32,082 nucleotides of DNA from a virus, in the IMG/VR virus record IMGVR_UViG_3300001533_003597, positions 1-32,082 of that record, one strand, 5' to 3'. The position numbers and the translations under genes are program-made. The notes under the pieces are model-generated. The model searched no databases, was not told the origin of the DNA, and saw only the letters and a list, made by a program, of their open reading frames with translations. Positions 2,135 through 12,841 of the stretch are shown here, in pieces. How positions within the stretch are numbered: position 1 is the first letter of the stretch; the number at the start of each line of letters is the position of its first letter.

Positions 2135-2156
2135 TATTTGGCAATGTTGCCAAATA
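2135..2156. promoter_or_regulatory. 22-bp palindrome before the basic-protein gene
   Basis: The arms TATTTGGCAA (2135-2144) and TTGCCAAATA (2147-2156) are perfect complements around a TG centre. The site lies in the 80-base gap after the zinc-ribbon genes and ends 9 bases before the ribosome site AGGAGA of the gene at 2177. It could be a protein operator or an RNA stem-loop controlling or processing the message. No T-run follows, so it is not an intrinsic terminator. Confidence 0.5.
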
Positions 2157-2176
2157 AAACTTTTAGGAGAGCCGAA

Positions 2177-2542
2177 ATGGCCAAGTCGACAGAGGCAAAA
2201 AAAGAGAAGAACAGTAAGGAAGACAAGGAGAAAGGAAAAAAGAGAAAGAAAACAACCATTAGTTTTCTCGTCTGCGCTTATCTTGACAAAAAACCTGACG
2301 CAGACACAAAAGAAGTTCGGGATCATATTGTGGAGAATGGTTTTCCTGATACCAAATTCAATAAGTCTCATCTTGCTTGGTACAAATACCAGCTCCGCAA
2401 AGGAAAATTGAAACTCCCGTCTGGAAAAGAGTTCCCTAAGTCGAATAGGAAAAAGACAGCAAAAAAGGAGACTAACACTTCCAAATCAACAACCAAGAAA
2501 ACCAAGAAGACTAAGAAAACCAAAAAGGCAAAAAAGGACTAA
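2177..2542 (+). CDS. Lysine-rich histone-like DNA-binding protein (putative)
   Basis: A 121-residue protein in three parts. It has a charged Lys/Glu N-terminus (1-27) and a compact helical core (about 28-82, TISFLVCAYLDKKPDADTKE onward, including FNKSHLAWYKYQLRKGKLKLP) that may be a small DNA-binding fold. It ends in a histone H1-like tail of repeated T-K-K units. I chose ATG 2177 over the in-frame ATG at 2138 because AGGAGAGCCGAA sits just before it, and because 2138 lies inside the palindrome. With the next small gene it forms a cassette between the palindrome and a strong terminator, suggesting high expression. Nucleoid coating or packaging is inferred. Confidence 0.65.
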   Translation: MAKSTEAKKEKNSKEDKEKGKKRKKTTISFLVCAYLDKKPDADTKEVRDHIVENGFPDTKFNKSHLAWYKYQLRKGKLKLPSGKEFPKSNRKKTAKKETNTSKSTTKKTKKTKKTKKAKKD

Positions 2543-2823: not shown

Positions 2824-3918
2824 ATGGCTTTTTTGACAGTTGGTAATACTTGGGATTACTCTTTACTTAGACTAATTAGTAGTCTGAACATGGAGTACAC
2901 AGAAACAAAAGTAATAACTGACACTCTCTTTGGCAATACCACAATAAATCCTATAGGTAATGCAAGAACTACTAATCGTCTTCAAGACTTATCTATGGAA
3001 CAAACACAGGAATTCATAGAAGAGGCCCATAAATTAGGCATACGTGTTGCCTGGACAATTAATGTTTCCTGTGTAGGCAATACAGCCGAATTTGTTAATT
3101 GGATAATGTCTAACAAAAAATGGCTAAGGAACTTTTTCTCCGAACTTAATCCAGATATTCTAATCATAGCAAACCCCTTAGTTATGCTTACCTTAACTGA
3201 GATAGGTATCGATATCCCAATAGAAATCTCTACCATTGCCAATATCTCAGAACCTAATCAAATTGCATACCTCATCAGTTTAGGATGTAACATTACCCGA
3301 GTCTGTTTACCAGTACATCAGAATAGAAATATAGAATTCCTTTCTTCTATGGGGCGTTTTGGTAAAACCCACGGTATTGAAATGGAAGTCATAGCTAATG
3401 AGTTTTGTTTCTTAGACAAATGCAACTGTGAAGGAGTTTTTAGACGTTCTTGCTATGACATGAATGCCCATGCTACAGAAAAAGGAGAAGTGGACAATGT
3501 TTTCTCTTTTCCTCGTAAACTTTGTACTGAAGCAAGATTAAGGGATCCTGTTAATTGGTTAAGAGCAAAATGGATTCTACCACAGATGATGCCTCAATAT
3601 GAAGATTTAGGCATACATCATTTTAAGATAACCGGTAGAACTCATCCAACTGCTTTCTTGGCTAATATTCTTCCGCATTATTATTCCAGACTTTTCCATG
3701 GAAACTTGTTAGAGTTATGGCCCCACATACAGACAATAGGGAAAAAGAACTTCCAAGAAACACAAAAGGAAACAATTTCCAATGCTCCTTTTATCAACAC
3801 AAAAGGCTTAGATTGGTTCACACAACACATTCTATCAAAATGTAAAAATGATTGTTCTTCTTGTTCCTTTTGCCAAATAGCATATGCCAAATTAAGAAAG
3901 GAAGGATATGTTTCATGA
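2824..3918 (+). CDS. U32 peptidase-family protein (Fe-S hydroxylase-like), phage-encoded
   Basis: A 364-residue protein with a TIM-barrel-like series of strands (VAWTINVSCVGNT, DILIIANPLVML, PIEISTIANISEP, ITRVCLP, GIEMEVIANEF). A Cys cluster follows: C195, C200, C202, C210 and C234, in the context E193-F-C...C-x-C...R-R-S-C-Y. This matches the U32 family. Its characterised members (TrhP, RlhA, UbiU/UbiV) hold a 4Fe-4S cluster and hydroxylate tRNA U34, 23S rRNA C2501 or ubiquinone precursors without O2; most are not peptidases. A second cluster, C340-x3-C344-x2-C347-x2-C350, lies at the C-terminus. I chose ATG 2824 (AAAGGAACTAACA before it); the longer frame from 2749 runs through the terminator. 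The substrate is unknown. Confidence 0.75.
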   Translation: MAFLTVGNTWDYSLLRLISSLNMEYTETKVITDTLFGNTTINPIGNARTTNRLQDLSMEQTQEFIEEAHKLGIRVAWTINVSCVGNTAEFVNWIMSNKKWLRNFFSELNPDILIIANPLVMLTLTEIGIDIPIEISTIANISEPNQIAYLISLGCNITRVCLPVHQNRNIEFLSSMGRFGKTHGIEMEVIANEFCFLDKCNCEGVFRRSCYDMNAHATEKGEVDNVFSFPRKLCTEARLRDPVNWLRAKWILPQMMPQYEDLGIHHFKITGRTHPTAFLANILPHYYSRLFHGNLLELWPHIQTIGKKNFQETQKETISNAPFINTKGLDWFTQHILSKCKNDCSSCSFCQIAYAKLRKEGYVS

Positions 3919-4451
3919 GATACCCATTAGATCAATTTCATAATCCAGCAATTGAAGAACCCTGTGACGGGGATTCTCTTATAGACATAGAGAGATGGTG
4001 TACTAGATATAATCAATTGTATAATATCCAAAACGCAATTACTAGATTCTGTATTGGGGCTTATCAAGTAGGACAAGCCCTAAAAGACACCTCAATAACA
4101 AGAGAATTTCGCATAGAAGCAATTGGGGCTAGTGTACTCCATACTATCTGTGCTTTGAAAATGGCTAAAGGAAGTATAGCTCATCTAGGTCAGGTCCATC
4201 TGTCAAGCATAGAAGGAATAATAGATATTAGAAAAACATTCGAAGCACAATGTCTGTTAATCCAACAATTCTTTTATCTTTGTGGAAGTGATGTAGGACA
4301 AATCAGGAAAAAAAGAATCAACATAGGAGAAATAGAGCAACTAACACAGGTATATGTCCAAAATATAGTAAGACTCATTCTTCCTAAAGAAAGAAGCAAA
4401 GGAATAGAACAAGCTTCAACTCAGCTCTTGAACAAGGAATTCGAAAAGTGA
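3915..4451 (+). CDS. Unknown helical protein of the modification cluster
   Basis: A 178-residue protein starting MRYPLDQFHNPAIEEPCDGD at ATG 3915, which overlaps the upstream stop (ATGA) and has AAGGAAGG in front. It is predominantly helical by inspection (IERWCTRYNQLYNIQNAITR, EFRIEAIGASVLHTICALKM). There is no membrane segment and no motif I recognise. The fold size would suit an all-alpha MazG-like protein, but the E-x-x-E/E-x-x-D metal motif is not visible, so I do not call it that. Tight coupling to the U32-like gene before it and the glycosylase-like gene after it suggests a shared job. Confidence 0.6.
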   Translation: MRYPLDQFHNPAIEEPCDGDSLIDIERWCTRYNQLYNIQNAITRFCIGAYQVGQALKDTSITREFRIEAIGASVLHTICALKMAKGSIAHLGQVHLSSIEGIIDIRKTFEAQCLLIQQFFYLCGSDVGQIRKKRINIGEIEQLTQVYVQNIVRLILPKERSKGIEQASTQLLNKEFEK

Positions 4452-5104
4452 ATAATAGAACAAAGACAAAAATCAGATTAATAGCAAGAGATAAAAGAGA
4501 AACAAAACTAAACATGGTAGCTAAAGCCATTTTAGATTGTTCACAATGTCTCCATTTGGCTAGAGGAACTGGATATGGAGATCCATTAAGTAGAATAATG
4601 ATAGTAGCTCAATCTCTTCATGCTCCTTGCCCTTTCACAGAAAAAGAAATTCCTTTTGTCGGACCTTCCTATGTAGACTCAGGAGATGTTCTTTTTTCTG
4701 CATTAGAAAGAGCTTCTATTCGGGTAGAAGATTGTTGGACTACTAATCTAGTTAAATGTCATACACCTAAGAACAGACCAAGCACAAATGAAGAAATACA
4801 AAAATGTAAACATTTTCTTGAGCTAGAACTTTCCATTATAAAACCTTTATTTGTTTTTGCTCTTGGTAATCAAGCTTTTACTTTTCTCAAATCTTCTAGT
4901 TCAGTAGCCAAGAAACACATTCGAGCACATCATACGTATACAGTTAAAAGCAAGTATTATGGAGTAGATTTGAAATTTTTCCTTATCCATCTCAAACATC
5001 CTAGTTGGGCCATGCGAAATGGAGAAGTAGAAGAAGAAAGATGGGTAATGGAAGCTGCCAAACAATTCAAAAGAGCTAAAAGAGTAATAGAAAGAGAGGA
5101 GTAA
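4448..5104 (+). CDS. Family 4-like uracil-DNA glycosylase with an altered active-site motif
   Basis: A 218-residue protein with the four Fe-S ligand positions of family 4/5 glycosylases: C31-S-Q-C34, C104 (in N-L-V-K-C) and C120 (in I-Q-K-C-K). It also has PFVGPS (69-74), the N100-L-V-K-C-H-T-P strand and the C-terminal HPS motif (184-186). Motif A, normally G-E-x-P-G, reads V53-A-Q-S-L-H-A-P60, so the usual active-site residues are lost. The protein may bind or excise another base, or may be inactive. The GTG start at 4448 overlaps the previous stop and has AAGGA upstream. ATG 4514 would give a more typical 196-residue protein. Confidence 0.8.
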   Translation: MNNRTKTKIRLIARDKRETKLNMVAKAILDCSQCLHLARGTGYGDPLSRIMIVAQSLHAPCPFTEKEIPFVGPSYVDSGDVLFSALERASIRVEDCWTTNLVKCHTPKNRPSTNEEIQKCKHFLELELSIIKPLFVFALGNQAFTFLKSSSSVAKKHIRAHHTYTVKSKYYGVDLKFFLIHLKHPSWAMRNGEVEEERWVMEAAKQFKRAKRVIEREE

Positions 5105-5105
5105 A

Positions 5106-5924
5106 ATGATTTTTCGTCAACTACAAGGCCTTTCAAATCTTTGTCATTCTTCACCTTTATCTGAAGATGAGATAAAGACTTTTCTTAACCTAAGAGAAGA
5201 AGACATCAATGATATTTTAGATTCTTCAATTGCTCCTTTTTACATCTCTCATCAGAGAAAGCATGCTGATATCCCTGGCATTTCATCTTGGTGGGACTTC
5301 ATGCTTGGAAACAAAATAAAAGAAACAAGGAAAGTAGCTTTTACTTCAGAAATATATATGAAAGCTATGTTGTTCCGTTGTTTCCTGTGTTATAAGCACA
5401 TGCCTATAGGATTACTAAGAAGAATAATAAATAAAAAAGATAAGATACTAGATTTGGGAGGAGGACCTGGTTTCTTTTCTGCCTTGTCTTTTATATTTGG
5501 AGCAGAACCTCATTATTTAGATAAGGAAAGTATTGCTTCAAAACTCACCCAAGCATTCAAACAAAACATTTGTGTTTTATTCGGTAATTTTCCTGAAGTC
5601 CTTCTTCCTTCCCCATTTAAGACAATTTTTGCCAATGAAGTTTTTCATGGAAGAAGTAAAGAAGAACAAGTACATTGGATAAGGAATCTATTACCGAACA
5701 TCTTAGAAAATAAAGGAAAAATCATAGTAAATGAGGTAACTCCCAAGGGCTCTACTCTATATAGTCGTTTCTTTGATAGCAGGATAAAAACAATGACAGA
5801 TGGAAAAGGTTCAGCTCTGACTCCAAAGGAACTTATCCATTTGTTCGGAGACCAATATACTATTACCAATTTGGTAACTTGGCATTCTCTCCCATACTAC
5901 ACTGCCATTTTTGAAAAGGAATAA
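5106..5924 (+). CDS. Class II (COMT/acetylserotonin-type) SAM-dependent O-methyltransferase
   Basis: A 272-residue protein. Residues 1-110 are a helical N-terminal domain. Residues 111-272 form a Rossmann methyltransferase: motif I I114-L-D-L-G-G-G-P-G122, an acidic residue after strand 2 (D139), and GNFPE (160-164). The segment NEVFHGRSKEEQVHWIRNLL, then GKIIVNEVTPKG, matches the 'LHDWSDE...GGKVIIVE' region of class II O-methyltransferases. H181 falls at the catalytic-base histidine. The family methylates hydroxyl groups on aromatic rings; the substrate here is unknown. GAGGAG lies 5 bases before ATG 5106. The close coupling to the U32-like gene suggests it methylates a hydroxyl made by that protein. 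Confidence 0.75.
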   Translation: MIFRQLQGLSNLCHSSPLSEDEIKTFLNLREEDINDILDSSIAPFYISHQRKHADIPGISSWWDFMLGNKIKETRKVAFTSEIYMKAMLFRCFLCYKHMPIGLLRRIINKKDKILDLGGGPGFFSALSFIFGAEPHYLDKESIASKLTQAFKQNICVLFGNFPEVLLPSPFKTIFANEVFHGRSKEEQVHWIRNLLPNILENKGKIIVNEVTPKGSTLYSRFFDSRIKTMTDGKGSALTPKELIHLFGDQYTITNLVTWHSLPYYTAIFEKE

Positions 5925-5933
5925 AACACCACA

Positions 5934-7853
5934 ATGGCAATCTTCTCCTTAGACTTAGAAACAACAAGCACAGATTTCAATAGGGGTTCCATAATAATGG
6001 CCTCTTGGTGTGGGACTGATCTGGTTCCTCATGCAGAACTCTGGTCTAACTTATTAAGGAACAAAATTGCCAGATGGTTATATGACCCCAAAAATACTGT
6101 CATTACCCAGAACGGTGTCTTTGACTATTCCTGGCTTCTTAAAAAAGGGATAATAGTTCGGGCAAAACAACATGACACCATGATAGCAAGTCATGTAATA
6201 GAATCTAATGCACCTGCAGACTTAGGTTCTTTAGTCAACAGGTATCTTACCCAGGAACTTTTTGATAATGCTGGCATTGAAATACAGATAGACGAAACAT
6301 GGAAAAAAGATGGACCAAAACTATGGCTCAAAGAAAATTCTAAATGGATAAGAAGAGAAAAAGGTAGAAAACCTCATTTCGGTGATGTTCCCACTTCTTT
6401 GTTACTTTCATATGCTAAAAAAGATGCTCTCCACACATTATTAGTTTGGTTCACTCTAAAAGGATTTTTAAAAGGAAAGAACAAATGGTCTTATGATCTT
6501 GACATGGCCATGCTTCCTATCATTTTGGGAATGAAGTTAAGAGGAATACCATTAGATGTTTCTTTATGTAGAAGAAGAAAGTTAGAACTAGAAAAAGAAC
6601 AACAGGCTTTTCTCGATTACTTCAACATTGATAAAGTAGGACCAAAAGCCATAATAGAAAAAATCTTTCCGGTCCTAGGAATAAAGCCCAGATATAAAAC
6701 AGAGAAAGGAAATTGGAGACTAAATGAAAGAGCTATCAGACAATATCAAGTTCTGTTTCCAGAACATGCCGAAATTCTTGAACGGCTCATACAATACAGA
6801 AAAGCCAAACAATCAAGTGGAACATATTATTCTGGTTGGTTAAAATGTTTGCATAGAGGGAAAATTAATCCCACCTTCAATTTGACCAATGCTAAAACTG
6901 GAAGATTTTCTTCTAGTGGACCGAATTTCCAGAATGTTAAAAAGAGAGGAGGAGAAAGAGCAGCTTTTCTGGTAAGACCAGGTTACATCAACCTGCATTG
7001 GGACTATGATCAAATAGAACTACGTATCCTTGCTCACTATTCAAGAGAACCACATCTAGTTGACATTTTTCAAAAAGGGATAGACCCGCATACTAGAACA
7101 GTAGAACTTATGGGGATAACAGAAGAAAATGCCAAATCTTTCTTATCTGGTAAATATAGAGAACAAGACCCTAGATTCATAGGAAAACAAGTAAACTATT
7201 CCTACTGGTATGGCATGGGACCATTAGCTCTTTCTCTTGACCTTGGTATTCCATTAAAAAAGGCCAAAGAACTTTTTCAAAGATACAGAATGGCATATCC
7301 AAAAGCGGAAACATGGTCTAGGAATACCATAAATGAAGCAAAAAGAATTGGTTATGTAGAAGACATTTTTGGCAGACGCTATTATCCCGACGATAAATGG
7401 AGTTACTACAAGTTAATCAACTATCTAATCCAAGGAACTGCAGCTCAGGTCATAAAATTGGGGATGCTAAGAGCCCAATATTTTTTATGCAAGGATCCAA
7501 GATTTTTAACGATAATCCGTGATATTCCATTGCATACAATGCATGGCATCGAATTATTAACTATACATGATGAAATTGGAATAGAAGTAGAGGACAAACA
7601 GAAAAAAGTAGAATATGTCATACCAGGAATAACAGAAGCTTTAACCATTAAAGACATCTTCATTATTCCACTAACAGTTGGATTAAAATGGACTAGAACT
7701 AACTGGGCAGAATTAAAGGAAATAGAAAAGGAACCCATAACATGGGGTACAATTAAAGATGAAAAAAGACACAAGATGCATTCTAGTAGACACAAGAGAA
7801 AAAAGACCTTGGAAATTCAAAGCGCAAAAAAAGGATACTCTAAAATATGGTGA
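5934..7853 (+). CDS. Family A DNA polymerase with 3'-5' exonuclease
   Basis: A 639-residue replicative polymerase. The exonuclease domain has Exo I D7-x-E9, Exo II N60-G-V-F-D64 and Exo III Y160-x3-D164. Polymerase motif A is W356-D357-Y-D-Q-I-E-L-R364, motif B R414...K418-Q-V-N-Y422-S-Y-W-Y426-G, and motif C H545-D546-E547. Tyr422 falls at the position of Phe762 of E. coli Pol I (Tyr in T7), the residue tied to dideoxynucleotide acceptance. There is no 5'-nuclease domain. The fold should end near residue 595; the remaining 40 residues are a basic tail whose coding DNA overlaps the ERCC4 gene by 95 bases in another frame. Confidence 0.95.
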   Translation: MAIFSLDLETTSTDFNRGSIIMASWCGTDLVPHAELWSNLLRNKIARWLYDPKNTVITQNGVFDYSWLLKKGIIVRAKQHDTMIASHVIESNAPADLGSLVNRYLTQELFDNAGIEIQIDETWKKDGPKLWLKENSKWIRREKGRKPHFGDVPTSLLLSYAKKDALHTLLVWFTLKGFLKGKNKWSYDLDMAMLPIILGMKLRGIPLDVSLCRRRKLELEKEQQAFLDYFNIDKVGPKAIIEKIFPVLGIKPRYKTEKGNWRLNERAIRQYQVLFPEHAEILERLIQYRKAKQSSGTYYSGWLKCLHRGKINPTFNLTNAKTGRFSSSGPNFQNVKKRGGERAAFLVRPGYINLHWDYDQIELRILAHYSREPHLVDIFQKGIDPHTRTVELMGITEENAKSFLSGKYREQDPRFIGKQVNYSYWYGMGPLALSLDLGIPLKKAKELFQRYRMAYPKAETWSRNTINEAKRIGYVEDIFGRRYYPDDKWSYYKLINYLIQGTAAQVIKLGMLRAQYFLCKDPRFLTIIRDIPLHTMHGIELLTIHDEIGIEVEDKQKKVEYVIPGITEALTIKDIFIIPLTVGLKWTRTNWAELKEIEKEPITWGTIKDEKRHKMHSSRHKRKKTLEIQSAKKGYSKIW

Positions 7854-11336: not shown

Positions 11337-11433
11337 CTTCTACAGCATCGGAAAACAACACAAAAACGTTACAAAGCAGCATTTAAAGCACCACAAAGAA
11401 GTCTATTTTGAGCAAGACATATTTTATACAAGA

Positions 11434-11718
11434 TCATACTGACCACAAGCCCAAAGGACATTTAGCCTTGCCTTCCCTTATTTCTCGCCTCCGCCGACAT
11501 GCCGACATTGCCACAAATGGGCAATCTTCAATAATTGCCGCCTCGTTCTCAGGAACACTGGGATGCGCCAGCCGCTCGCGGCACGCCTCGCAGATCGCCC
11601 CGATATGTCGTATCAGATCATTGGCGTGGTCGGGCGGCATGGGCGGCGGCGCCGGGCGGCCGTCCCGGGCGGCGGCGAGCGCCACCAGCACCATGATGAC
11701 CAGCACTGTGCGCATCAC
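11434..11718 (-). CDS. Small secreted or membrane-anchored Cys-rich protein
   Basis: A 94-residue protein with a hydrophobic N-terminal segment (TVLVIMVLVALAAA, residues 4-17) that fits a signal peptide or anchor. A Pro-rich stretch follows, then a Cys-rich domain: I-G-A-I-C-E-A-C, E-D-C-P-F, S-A-C-R-R-R and C-P-L-G-L-W. The domain is shared with the gene just upstream on the same strand, so the two are paralogues. It overlaps that gene by 4 bases. It is GC-rich, unlike most of the window. Last gene of the minus-strand operon. Function unknown. Confidence 0.6.
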   Translation of the reverse strand: MMRTVLVIMVLVALAAARDGRPAPPPMPPDHANDLIRHIGAICEACRERLAHPSVPENEAAIIEDCPFVAMSACRRRREIREGKAKCPLGLWSV

Positions 11719-12044
11719 GTGTCACCTCCTGATTTCCAGAGTCCCAGCGGACAGACCGCCACCCCCGCCCGAATCAGGCTGCGCCGCTGACAGGCCGGCA
11801 AGGCCGCAAACGGGCAGTCCTCAATCGTGTCGAGATCAGGATTGTCGATCTCAGACGGGTCCTGGAGCCTCGCGCCGCAGGCCTCGCAGAGGGCTCCAAT
11901 CCGGTCATATTCGGTCGCGAGAGCCTCCTGTCGCCCAACGAAGGCGGGATCAGGGGGCGAGGGCGAAGGGTAACGCCTCTGTGGTCGAGCCCGCCCCATT
12001 CGCAGCCGCCATAGGTCGTCGGGGGTCAGGTAGGTAATGGGCAC
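11715..12044 (-). CDS. Cys-rich protein, paralogue of the downstream gene, without signal peptide
   Basis: A 109-residue protein whose residues 45-105 (IGALCEACGARL, IEDCPFAALPACQRR, VCPLGLW) match the C-terminal domain of the 94-residue protein at 11434-11718, with five Cys in the same pattern (CxxC, C, C, C). The N-terminus is Arg/Pro-rich and not hydrophobic, so this copy should stay in the cytoplasm or virion. It begins 19 bases inside the 3' end of the preceding gene (12026). Strongly GC-rich. Function unknown. Confidence 0.6.
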   Translation of the reverse strand: MPITYLTPDDLWRLRMGRARPQRRYPSPSPPDPAFVGRQEALATEYDRIGALCEACGARLQDPSEIDNPDLDTIEDCPFAALPACQRRSLIRAGVAVCPLGLWKSGGDT

Positions 12045-12838
12045 ACCTCCGTGCAGCTACTGCCGGTGTCGATGATCTCGACCTCGCCGTCGCTGGAGAT
12101 TCCCTCGACCGTCACGCGGTACCACACGCCGTCCGAAAGCTTGACCACCTTCCCGACGTGCGGGCCAAGCTGGGGCGAGTGGCTGTAGATCGGGTCGCCG
12201 CCGGGGCAGGACTCGTCGCCATTCTCCACGTCGCCGGGGCGGATGGTGGCCGTGCCGTCTGTGGTCGCGCCAAACCAGGTGCCCAGGTAGGCGTCGCCGG
12301 GGCACGAGGGATCATAGACATGATCGAGCACGGTTGGCGTCAGGCAGTCCCAGGTGTTCCCCGCGTCGAGCCCTCCCGACCAGAACAACTCAGCCTGCCC
12401 GAAATTATGCCCCCAAGCGATAACGCGCACATTGACAGCCTTGTCCCAACGAAGCGAGACATGCGCCTCAACCGCGTAGCCGACCTGCCAGCGCTCGCAA
12501 GGACACCCTGTCGCGGTGGAGCAGACTTCCCATCGACCGTCGTATGGGCCCGACCCCGACCAATGGCAATCCCCGGTCATCGGACAAGCGATGGACAGAG
12601 GGTTCGACGGAGGCGTTTCCCACATGCATAGATCGACGCATGCCGGCGGATAAGTCACGTCAATCTTTACCGTCACGATCCACGGCGCGGGGTTCGGGTG
12701 GCACGTGCCGCAGAAGGAAAACGGGTAACACGGCGACAGCTTGAAGATCGTCGTCCCATCATCACAGCAGCAATCGGGGTGCATTGCAACTGCCCCATTG
12801 TCAAACAGTATATCACCTTCCCAGAATTGAACAGCCAT
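12026..12838 (-). CDS. GC-rich, Cys-rich putative tail-tip or virion protein
   Basis: A 270-residue protein beginning MAVQFWEGDILFDNGAVAMH and unusually rich in Cys, Trp, Gly and Pro (for example DCCCDDG, CYPFSFCGTCHPNP, CSTATGCPCERW). A beta-rich extracellular-type domain with disulfides is likely. The last segment (GKVVKLSDGVWYRVTVEGIS followed by SDGEVEIIDTG) looks like a small beta-barrel. It follows the distal tail genes by three bases, and the composition changes from AT-rich to GC-rich exactly at that boundary. I infer a virion surface or receptor-contact protein gained by transfer. No named family recognised. Confidence 0.6.
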   Translation of the reverse strand: MAVQFWEGDILFDNGAVAMHPDCCCDDGTTIFKLSPCYPFSFCGTCHPNPAPWIVTVKIDVTYPPACVDLCMWETPPSNPLSIACPMTGDCHWSGSGPYDGRWEVCSTATGCPCERWQVGYAVEAHVSLRWDKAVNVRVIAWGHNFGQAELFWSGGLDAGNTWDCLTPTVLDHVYDPSCPGDAYLGTWFGATTDGTATIRPGDVENGDESCPGGDPIYSHSPQLGPHVGKVVKLSDGVWYRVTVEGISSDGEVEIIDTGSSCTEVCPLPT

Positions 12839-12841
12839 TGT

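Follow-up and report, generated by a model that had tools for sequence, protein, structure and literature searches.

Can a phage hydroxylate a pyrimidine base and then cap the new hydroxyl with a methyl group, and if so, in which nucleic acid? The question is raised by four adjoining genes in an IMG/VR virus record (IMGVR_UViG_3300001533_003597), which was analyzed over its whole length of 32,082 bases (the window) and may be incomplete, since it has no end repeats. A sequence-only reading had described these genes as a tightly coupled set encoding a U32-family Fe-S protein, a helical protein, a uracil-DNA glycosylase (UDG)-like Fe-S protein, and a class II O-methyltransferase, and had proposed that they serve to make a methoxy base in phage DNA, tRNA, or rRNA. 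On balance, we think it probable that the cassette supplies the phage's own DNA with a hypermodified pyrimidine, 5-methoxycytosine being the likeliest. The four open reading frames (ORFs) are as follows.

2824..3918, plus strand: gene 1, U32-family protein, 364 amino acids, predicted prephenate-dependent pyrimidine C5-hydroxylase (PF01136, phrog_5757, aligned catalytic residues, model)
3915..4451, plus strand: gene 2, helical protein, 178 amino acids, no family match (its start codon overlaps the U32 stop)
4448..5104, plus strand: gene 3, family-4-like UDG homologue, 218 amino acids (PF03167, Fe-S cysteines, HP motif)
5106..5924, plus strand: gene 4, S-adenosylmethionine (SAM) methyltransferase, 272 amino acids, class II O-methyltransferase-like (profile match to Plu4890, Foldseek, invariant residues)

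The tight coupling was confirmed. Stop and start codons overlap at the junctions of genes 1 and 2 (ATGA, 3915-3918) and of genes 2 and 3 (GTGA, 4448-4451), a single base separates the TAA that ends gene 3 at 5104 from the ATG of gene 4 at 5106, and the Shine-Dalgarno-like sequence AAGGAAC lies upstream of the start at 2824. The gene order is also conserved in two further contigs, as described below.

Gene 1 is a U32 protein

Gene 1 scored 36.3 bits against PF01136, above the cut-off of 22.4 for U32 membership, and matched phrog_5757 from end to end (E=1e-53). More than 200 deposited phages, almost all T4-like, encode proteins that share about 30-32% identity with it across 97-99% of its length. 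When it was aligned with Escherichia coli TrhP, RlhA, and UbiU, its residues E188, C210, and C234 fell on E162, C177, and C193 of TrhP, with C195 one column off C170, and the motif FKITGRT was present. Of the four cysteine ligands that a 4Fe-4S cluster has in UbiU and UbiV, three have clear candidates here (C195, C210, and C234), and the fourth might be C161 or one of several alternatives. In TrhP, E162, C170, and C177 are essential, as are their equivalents in RlhA, and the hydroxylation depends on prephenate, direct catalysis by TrhP and RlhA not being proven in that work (PMC6599085).

The AlphaFold2 model of gene 1, made with 30 sequences, was confident (predicted local distance difference test score [pLDDT] 90.4; predicted template modeling score [pTM] 0.91). 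Its best structural match was the U32 protein Mk0906 (Z 16.9, root-mean-square deviation 3.2 over 226 residues), and the next fold, that of unrelated barrels, reached Z 11.7. TrhP, RlhA, and UbiU were not among the matches, their presence in the searched structure library being uncertain. Both the membership of the U32 family and its triosephosphate isomerase (TIM)-barrel fold were borne out. A scan of viral contigs with the gene 1 sequence alone gave no match, and the final U32 scan gained no further contig.

Gene 4 resembles class II O-methyltransferases

The SAM motif of gene 4, DLGGGPG, begins at residue 116, and the equivalent of the catalytic His is H181, in NEVFHGRS. Gene 4 alone had no significant Pfam match; the PF00891 cut-off of 22.3 bits was not reached, with no match in the window and 12.2 and 14.4 bits for contigs L058 and L081, respectively. 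As a single query it also found nothing among the viral contigs or the deposited phages. Its homologues in L029, L058, L081, L078, and L085 are just 17-25% identical to it, and the resulting six-sequence alignment is too divergent for a pattern scan. Nevertheless, D116, G118, G120, and H181 are invariant in all six, and the His is also kept in the methyltransferase of L075.

The six-sequence profile matched the solved O-methyltransferase Plu4890 (E=5e-7); in this alignment LHNWSD of Plu4890 falls on EVLHGRS of the phage proteins, at the position of H181. By our own count this His of Plu4890 has number 230 in the chain sequence, and the PDB holds H229N mutants of the enzyme; we take it for the catalytic His, assuming a numbering offset of one residue. 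Class II O-methyltransferases also held the top Foldseek ranks for the low-confidence gene 4 model. From sequence and model together, we conclude that gene 4 probably encodes a distant relative of the class II O-methyltransferases rather than a certified PF00891 member, and it is in this looser form that the earlier assignment stands.

Genes 3 and 2

Gene 3 matched the UDG superfamily (PF03167) with 70.1 bits (cut-off 24.3) and NCBIfam UDG_fam4 with 75.3 bits, below the cut-off of 125.3. The Fe-S cysteines C31, C34, C104, and C120 are invariant in eight sequences and the HP motif is kept, so that a UDG-like Fe-S protein was correctly recognized, but motif 1 departs from the family: it reads AQSLH instead of the family-4 GE[AG]PG. 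The corresponding motif is GQS[LF]C in L029, L058, and L078, GISPG in L085, and A[RQ]N[PA]G in L022, L025, L028, and L045. The motif 1 Glu is lost in 10 of the 11 stand-alone UDGs linked to U32 versus 3 of 16 other phage UDGs (p=0.0003; this p-value and the one below are indicative only, because the sequences and loci counted are related). The natural reading is that gene 3 would be a re-specialized glycosylase or binder; as a matter of speculation, its target could be 5-hydroxyuracil, the deamination product of 5-hydroxycytosine.

Gene 2 had no family match in Pfam, PHROG, or other family searches. In L058 and L085 its slot holds a small DUF6378-like protein (weak match), and hhalign detected no homology between gene 2 and its small positional counterparts in L058, L085, and L029. 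Chorismate mutase was considered as an identity for gene 2 and rejected, as the window has no PF01817 match.

The U32 and methyltransferase pair recurs without the glycosyltransferase group

A search of gene neighborhoods found the U32 gene together with an O-methyltransferase-like gene of the gene 4 type in six other phage contigs, seven with the window, and these are scattered on the U32 tree, which included six of the seven. The window, L029, and L058 share the order U32, small gene, UDG, methyltransferase, PolA, ERCC4, PDDEXK, and Sak4, a conservation which shows that the cluster is no chance juxtaposition. The order in L085 is U32, small gene, UDG, radical-SAM protein, and methyltransferase, and in L078 it is UDG, methyltransferase, another ORF, kinase, PolA, small ORF, and U32. 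L081 has kinase, methyltransferase, deaminase, and U32, and L075 has U32, kinase, methyltransferase, and deaminase. The radical SAM protein of L085 (10247-11368, between UDG and methyltransferase) has a weak B12-binding match, and directly 5' of the methyltransferase of L081 (5622-6590) a MazG-like N-terminal part is apparently fused to a deoxynucleoside monophosphate (dNMP)-kinase-like domain.

Genes of a glycosyltransferase-like group lie near U32 in none of the seven methyltransferase loci, compared with 17 of the 24 others (Fisher p=0.0013), some flanks in this count being short (0.3 kb on one side in L081). The group is a gene group and not a set of proven transferases, since TH1_063 of phage Thanatos, which belongs to it, proved to be a UDP-xylose pyrophosphorylase (PMC12838424). 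L058 has an unrelated GT2-type gene upstream. The absence of the group beside the methyltransferase is the pattern to be expected if the hydroxyl is capped with a methyl group instead of a sugar.

A phage clade of U32 proteins near DNA-modification genes

In a tree of 35 sequences (31 phage-type, of which 29 are viral and two lie in contigs of metagenome-assembled genomes, plus four from E. coli), a branch with 95/93 support separated all the phage-type U32 proteins from TrhP, RlhA, UbiU, and UbiV, the four E. coli proteins being the cellular references used. The phage-type set includes RB69, Thanatos, and a Serratia phage, and the T-even group is monophyletic. The window protein sits on a long end branch whose exact placement is unsure, with L029 nearest by path. 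The two bacterial contigs, L069 (Erysipelotrichales) and L070 (BRC1/Sumerlaeota), are probably prophage or phage contigs; L069 also holds a chorismate mutase, a kinase, and a gene of the glycosyltransferase-like group.

The U32 gene lies downstream of the DNA polymerase gene in RB69, Bas46, Thanatos, Serratia CBH8, Klebsiella Marfa, and Yersinia phiR1-RT, as well as in Proteus, Morganella, and Enterobacter phages. Besides a thymidylate synthase (TS) homologue and a dNMP kinase, all of these clusters carry a sugar-nucleotide gene and a member of the glycosyltransferase-like group. Across the 31 loci, a dNMP kinase lies near U32 in 21 and a deoxycytidine monophosphate (dCMP) deaminase in 10. The DNA of Mosigvirus, the RB69 group, carries arabinose on 5-hydroxycytosine (PMC13390438), and that of Thanatos a deoxypentose O-linked to cytosine (PMC12838424). 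No text assigning a role to the U32 protein of Mosigvirus, LC53, or Thanatos was found in the literature consulted, which did not extend to Lee et al. 2025.

Other neighbors belong to the shikimate pathway. A type II chorismate mutase is the small gene near U32 in six Straboviridae clusters, and a 3-deoxy-D-arabino-heptulosonate 7-phosphate (DAHP) synthase gene adjoins U32 in the metagenomic contigs L025 and L045, the latter having dCMP deaminase, chorismate mutase, DAHP synthase, and U32 consecutively. Fusions of DAHP synthase and chorismate mutase lie near U32 in L077 (6312-7364) and L082 (9079-10194). A chorismate mutase query matched 56 of 50,697 phage records, and among the matches listed most adjoin TS or U32 genes. 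Chorismate mutase produces prephenate, and DAHP synthase catalyzes the first step of the pathway towards it. The shikimate genes beside U32 are thus the strongest argument for a prephenate-using enzyme and suggest that the phage U32 proteins use this compound.

Proposed function and rival explanations

As the first step of the favored reading, the U32 protein, an Fe-S TIM-barrel enzyme, would hydroxylate cytosine at C5 with prephenate, either on dCMP or in DNA, to judge by homology and gene context and by the reaction assumed for its relatives RlhA and TrhP on RNA. The conserved His of the class II O-methyltransferase-like enzyme would then deprotonate the new hydroxyl for methylation by SAM, placing a methyl group where other phages of the U32 clade attach a sugar. 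More speculatively, the UDG-like protein with its changed motif 1 might remove or bind an unwanted base of the pathway, for example 5-hydroxyuracil, and the small helical protein may be an accessory. The expected benefit would be phage DNA shielded from host nucleases. No glycosyltransferase or sugar-nucleotide gene was detected in the window, which may be a fragment, by local profiles or PF00535.

Among the targets that had been considered, phage DNA or a nucleotide precursor is favored over tRNA and rRNA, because the characterized phages of the U32 clade carry a sugar O-linked to 5-hydroxycytosine in their DNA and because U32 genes across phages keep company with DNA polymerases, UDGs, TS-like proteins, dNMP kinases, and dCMP deaminases. 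A phage pair resembling TrhP-TrmR and making 5-methoxyuridine (mo5U) at a tRNA wobble position, or an RlhA-like activity on rRNA, seems very unlikely to us. There is a precedent in the Bacillus subtilis operon trhP1-trhP2-yrrM, in which TrhP1/TrhP2 and the O-methyltransferase TrmR (YrrM) make mo5U (PMC6599085), and the phage carries a tRNA gene of its own. However, that tRNA-Lys(UUU) (639-713), which the sequence-only reading had mentioned alongside its candidate targets, is an unlikely substrate, since 5-hydroxyuridine (ho5U) and mo5U sit at the wobble position of tRNAs for NYN codons (PMC6599085) and tRNA-Lys is not one of these. Moreover, the window protein falls outside the cellular TrhP branch as represented by E. 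coli, its neighbors are a UDG and PolA, joined in relatives by dNMP kinase and dCMP deaminase, and the characterized phages of the clade modify DNA. Positive support for tRNA or rRNA as the target was not found.

Several points weigh against DNA methoxylation by the cassette. Its product and chemistry are predictions, and the p-values above come from related loci. The window has no TS (PF00303), kinase, chorismate mutase, or DAHP synthase, although the record may be a fragment. The gene 4 model is weak (pLDDT 52, pTM 0.56), and in VIA-align its match to Plu4891 (Z 14.1) is equaled to within 1 by other SAM enzymes, so in the structural check that had been proposed the class II fold, which includes a helical dimerization domain, leads the Foldseek ranking and is tied by other SAM enzymes in the Z scores. 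Among the best Foldseek matches were also RdmB and a tRNA methyltransferase that makes uridine 5-oxyacetic acid (cmo5U34). Gene 4 may accordingly not O-methylate a hydroxyl but use carboxy-SAM in the manner of CmoB/CmoX, act on another acceptor, or be a non-methylating, RdmB-like hydroxylase. Carboxy-SAM, too, derives from prephenate, and phage CmoA/CmoX modify DNA cytosine (PMC12783734). We regard this as distinctly unlikely, given that all six phages keep the SAM motif together with the His that aligns with the catalytic His of O-methyltransferases and that the cassette showed no evident CmoA-like gene, no profile search for CmoA having been made.

The main doubt, and a serious rival for the role of U32, is that a TS-superfamily 5-hydroxy-dCMP synthase may install the hydroxyl, encoded elsewhere in the genome or outside the fragment, with U32 in another role, for example as an oxygen-independent backup or in a step on the modifying group. 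In presenting the work of Lee et al. 2025 and of Mahler et al. 2025, PMC13390438 assigns 5-hydroxy-dCMP synthesis to a TS-superfamily homologue, named 5-hodCMP synthase; Lee et al. 2025 appears to be the origin of the assignment. TS-like genes stand beside U32 in L022, L028, L049, and the T-even clusters. Furthermore, Acinetobacter phage DLP1 (L109) and Dhakavirus QL01 (L110) have TS-like, glycosyltransferase-group, and kinase genes and U32 nowhere in the genome, so U32 is not required wherever a TS homologue is present. Both phages also have sugar genes and, unlike their U32-bearing relatives, lack chorismate mutase. Conversely, the long U32 contigs L031 (138.9 kb), L082 (148 kb), L080 (99.7 kb), and L077 (74 kb) have no PF00303 match, and the adjoining shikimate genes point to a U32 enzyme that uses prephenate. 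The TS-only phages and U32-only contigs may represent two alternative routes to 5-hydroxycytosine, or U32 may have another role; a split like that between TrhO (O2) and TrhP (prephenate) fits both sets of facts. Overall, we find it rather unlikely that the TS homologue installs the hydroxyl here. The idea of a hydroxylase paired with an O-methyltransferase has gained conserved residues, folds, and the seven-contig pair, and its chemistry remains a prediction.

Comparison with known systems

The phages with arabinosyl-5-hydroxycytosine (Mosigvirus RB69, Bas46, and NP; Serratia LC53) and Thanatos, with pentosyl-cytosine, resemble the window in having a homologous U32 gene in a DNA-modification cluster by the replication genes, among neighbors of cytosine metabolism. 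They differ in their TS homologue, dNMP kinase, sugar-nucleotide genes, and glycosyltransferase, none of which was found in the window, which instead has the UDG-like and O-methyltransferase-like proteins. B. subtilis TrhP1/TrhP2-TrmR likewise combines U32 proteins with an O-methyltransferase, hydroxylation and then O-methylation at the pyrimidine C5 giving mo5U34. It acts on tRNA, however, whereas the phage cassette includes a UDG and adjoins a DNA polymerase gene, and the phage U32 proteins lie in another branch (as compared with E. coli TrhP). RlhA, which synthesizes 5-hydroxycytidine at C2501 of 23S rRNA, shares the U32 domain, the essential Glu and Cys, and 5-hydroxycytosine as the would-be product, but is a much longer protein with an rRNA target and no methyltransferase partner.

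Gene 4 agrees with the class II O-methyltransferases Plu4890/4891, COMT, and PhzM in SAM motif, catalytic His position, and Foldseek match of its model, and differs in its score below the PF00891 cut-off, its N-terminal part modeled with low confidence, and its presumed nucleobase substrate. Similarly, gene 3 has the four Fe-S cysteines, the HP motif 2, and the overall match of a family 4 UDG, with AQSLH in place of GE[AG]PG and a score below the curated family-4 cut-off.

Genomic context

The other features of the window that bear on the cassette are listed here.

639-713: tRNA-Lys(TTT)
2138..2542, plus strand: small lysine-rich protein upstream of the cassette (blastp E=4e-10 to its L029 homologue)
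5934..7853, plus strand: DNA polymerase family A (PF00476), next downstream of the cassette, with an equivalent position in L029 and L058

Through the position of the polymerase gene, synteny links the cassette to DNA metabolism. The surrounding genes also encode a DNA ligase, nucleases of the ERCC4 and PDDEXK types, a Sak4-type ATPase, and a MazG-like protein, and the structural genes lie on the opposite strand from the cassette. The L029 homologue of the small lysine-rich protein (7116-7460) is likewise upstream of U32, and similar ORFs were seen by eye in L058 (1616-1921) and L081 (4966-5421). A defense-system reading was rejected, since in PADLOC the sole result was that the SAM domain of gene 4 weakly matched mad2.

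Positions 1-600 have a guanine-cytosine (GC) content of 57.6%, against about 36% in the adjacent sequence, and a dockerin-like tail (WWDGDFDGDGDVDLDDFAILKNNFGD, frame 2) lies shortly before the tRNA-Lys gene, its motif being, we presume, reminiscent of Planctomycetota proteins. This end of the record may be chimeric or may be host DNA from the edge of a prophage. The idea that the tRNA-Lys gene is an attachment site was set aside, as no repeat of it occurs elsewhere in the window, although the record has no second boundary. A GC island of about 66% within the 36% GC genome spans 11400-12840 and holds a minus-strand ORF (12026-12838) for a cysteine-rich protein of 270 amino acids without a PHROG match.

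Significance

The cassette is most likely a variant of phage DNA hypermodification, with a methyl cap where a sugar is usual. No paper on 5-methoxycytosine in phage DNA was found in the literature consulted. We tentatively propose, as a possibility we do not yet favor, that several phage lineages naturally have this base, or a different 5-methoxypyrimidine, in their DNA, formed by prephenate-dependent and possibly oxygen-independent hydroxylation and subsequent O-methylation, with a re-specialized UDG to handle by-products of the pathway. If so, a methoxy-capped base would be added to the known modifications of phage DNA, and a prephenate-dependent hydroxylase, the counterpart of TrhP, may operate beside the TS route already proposed.

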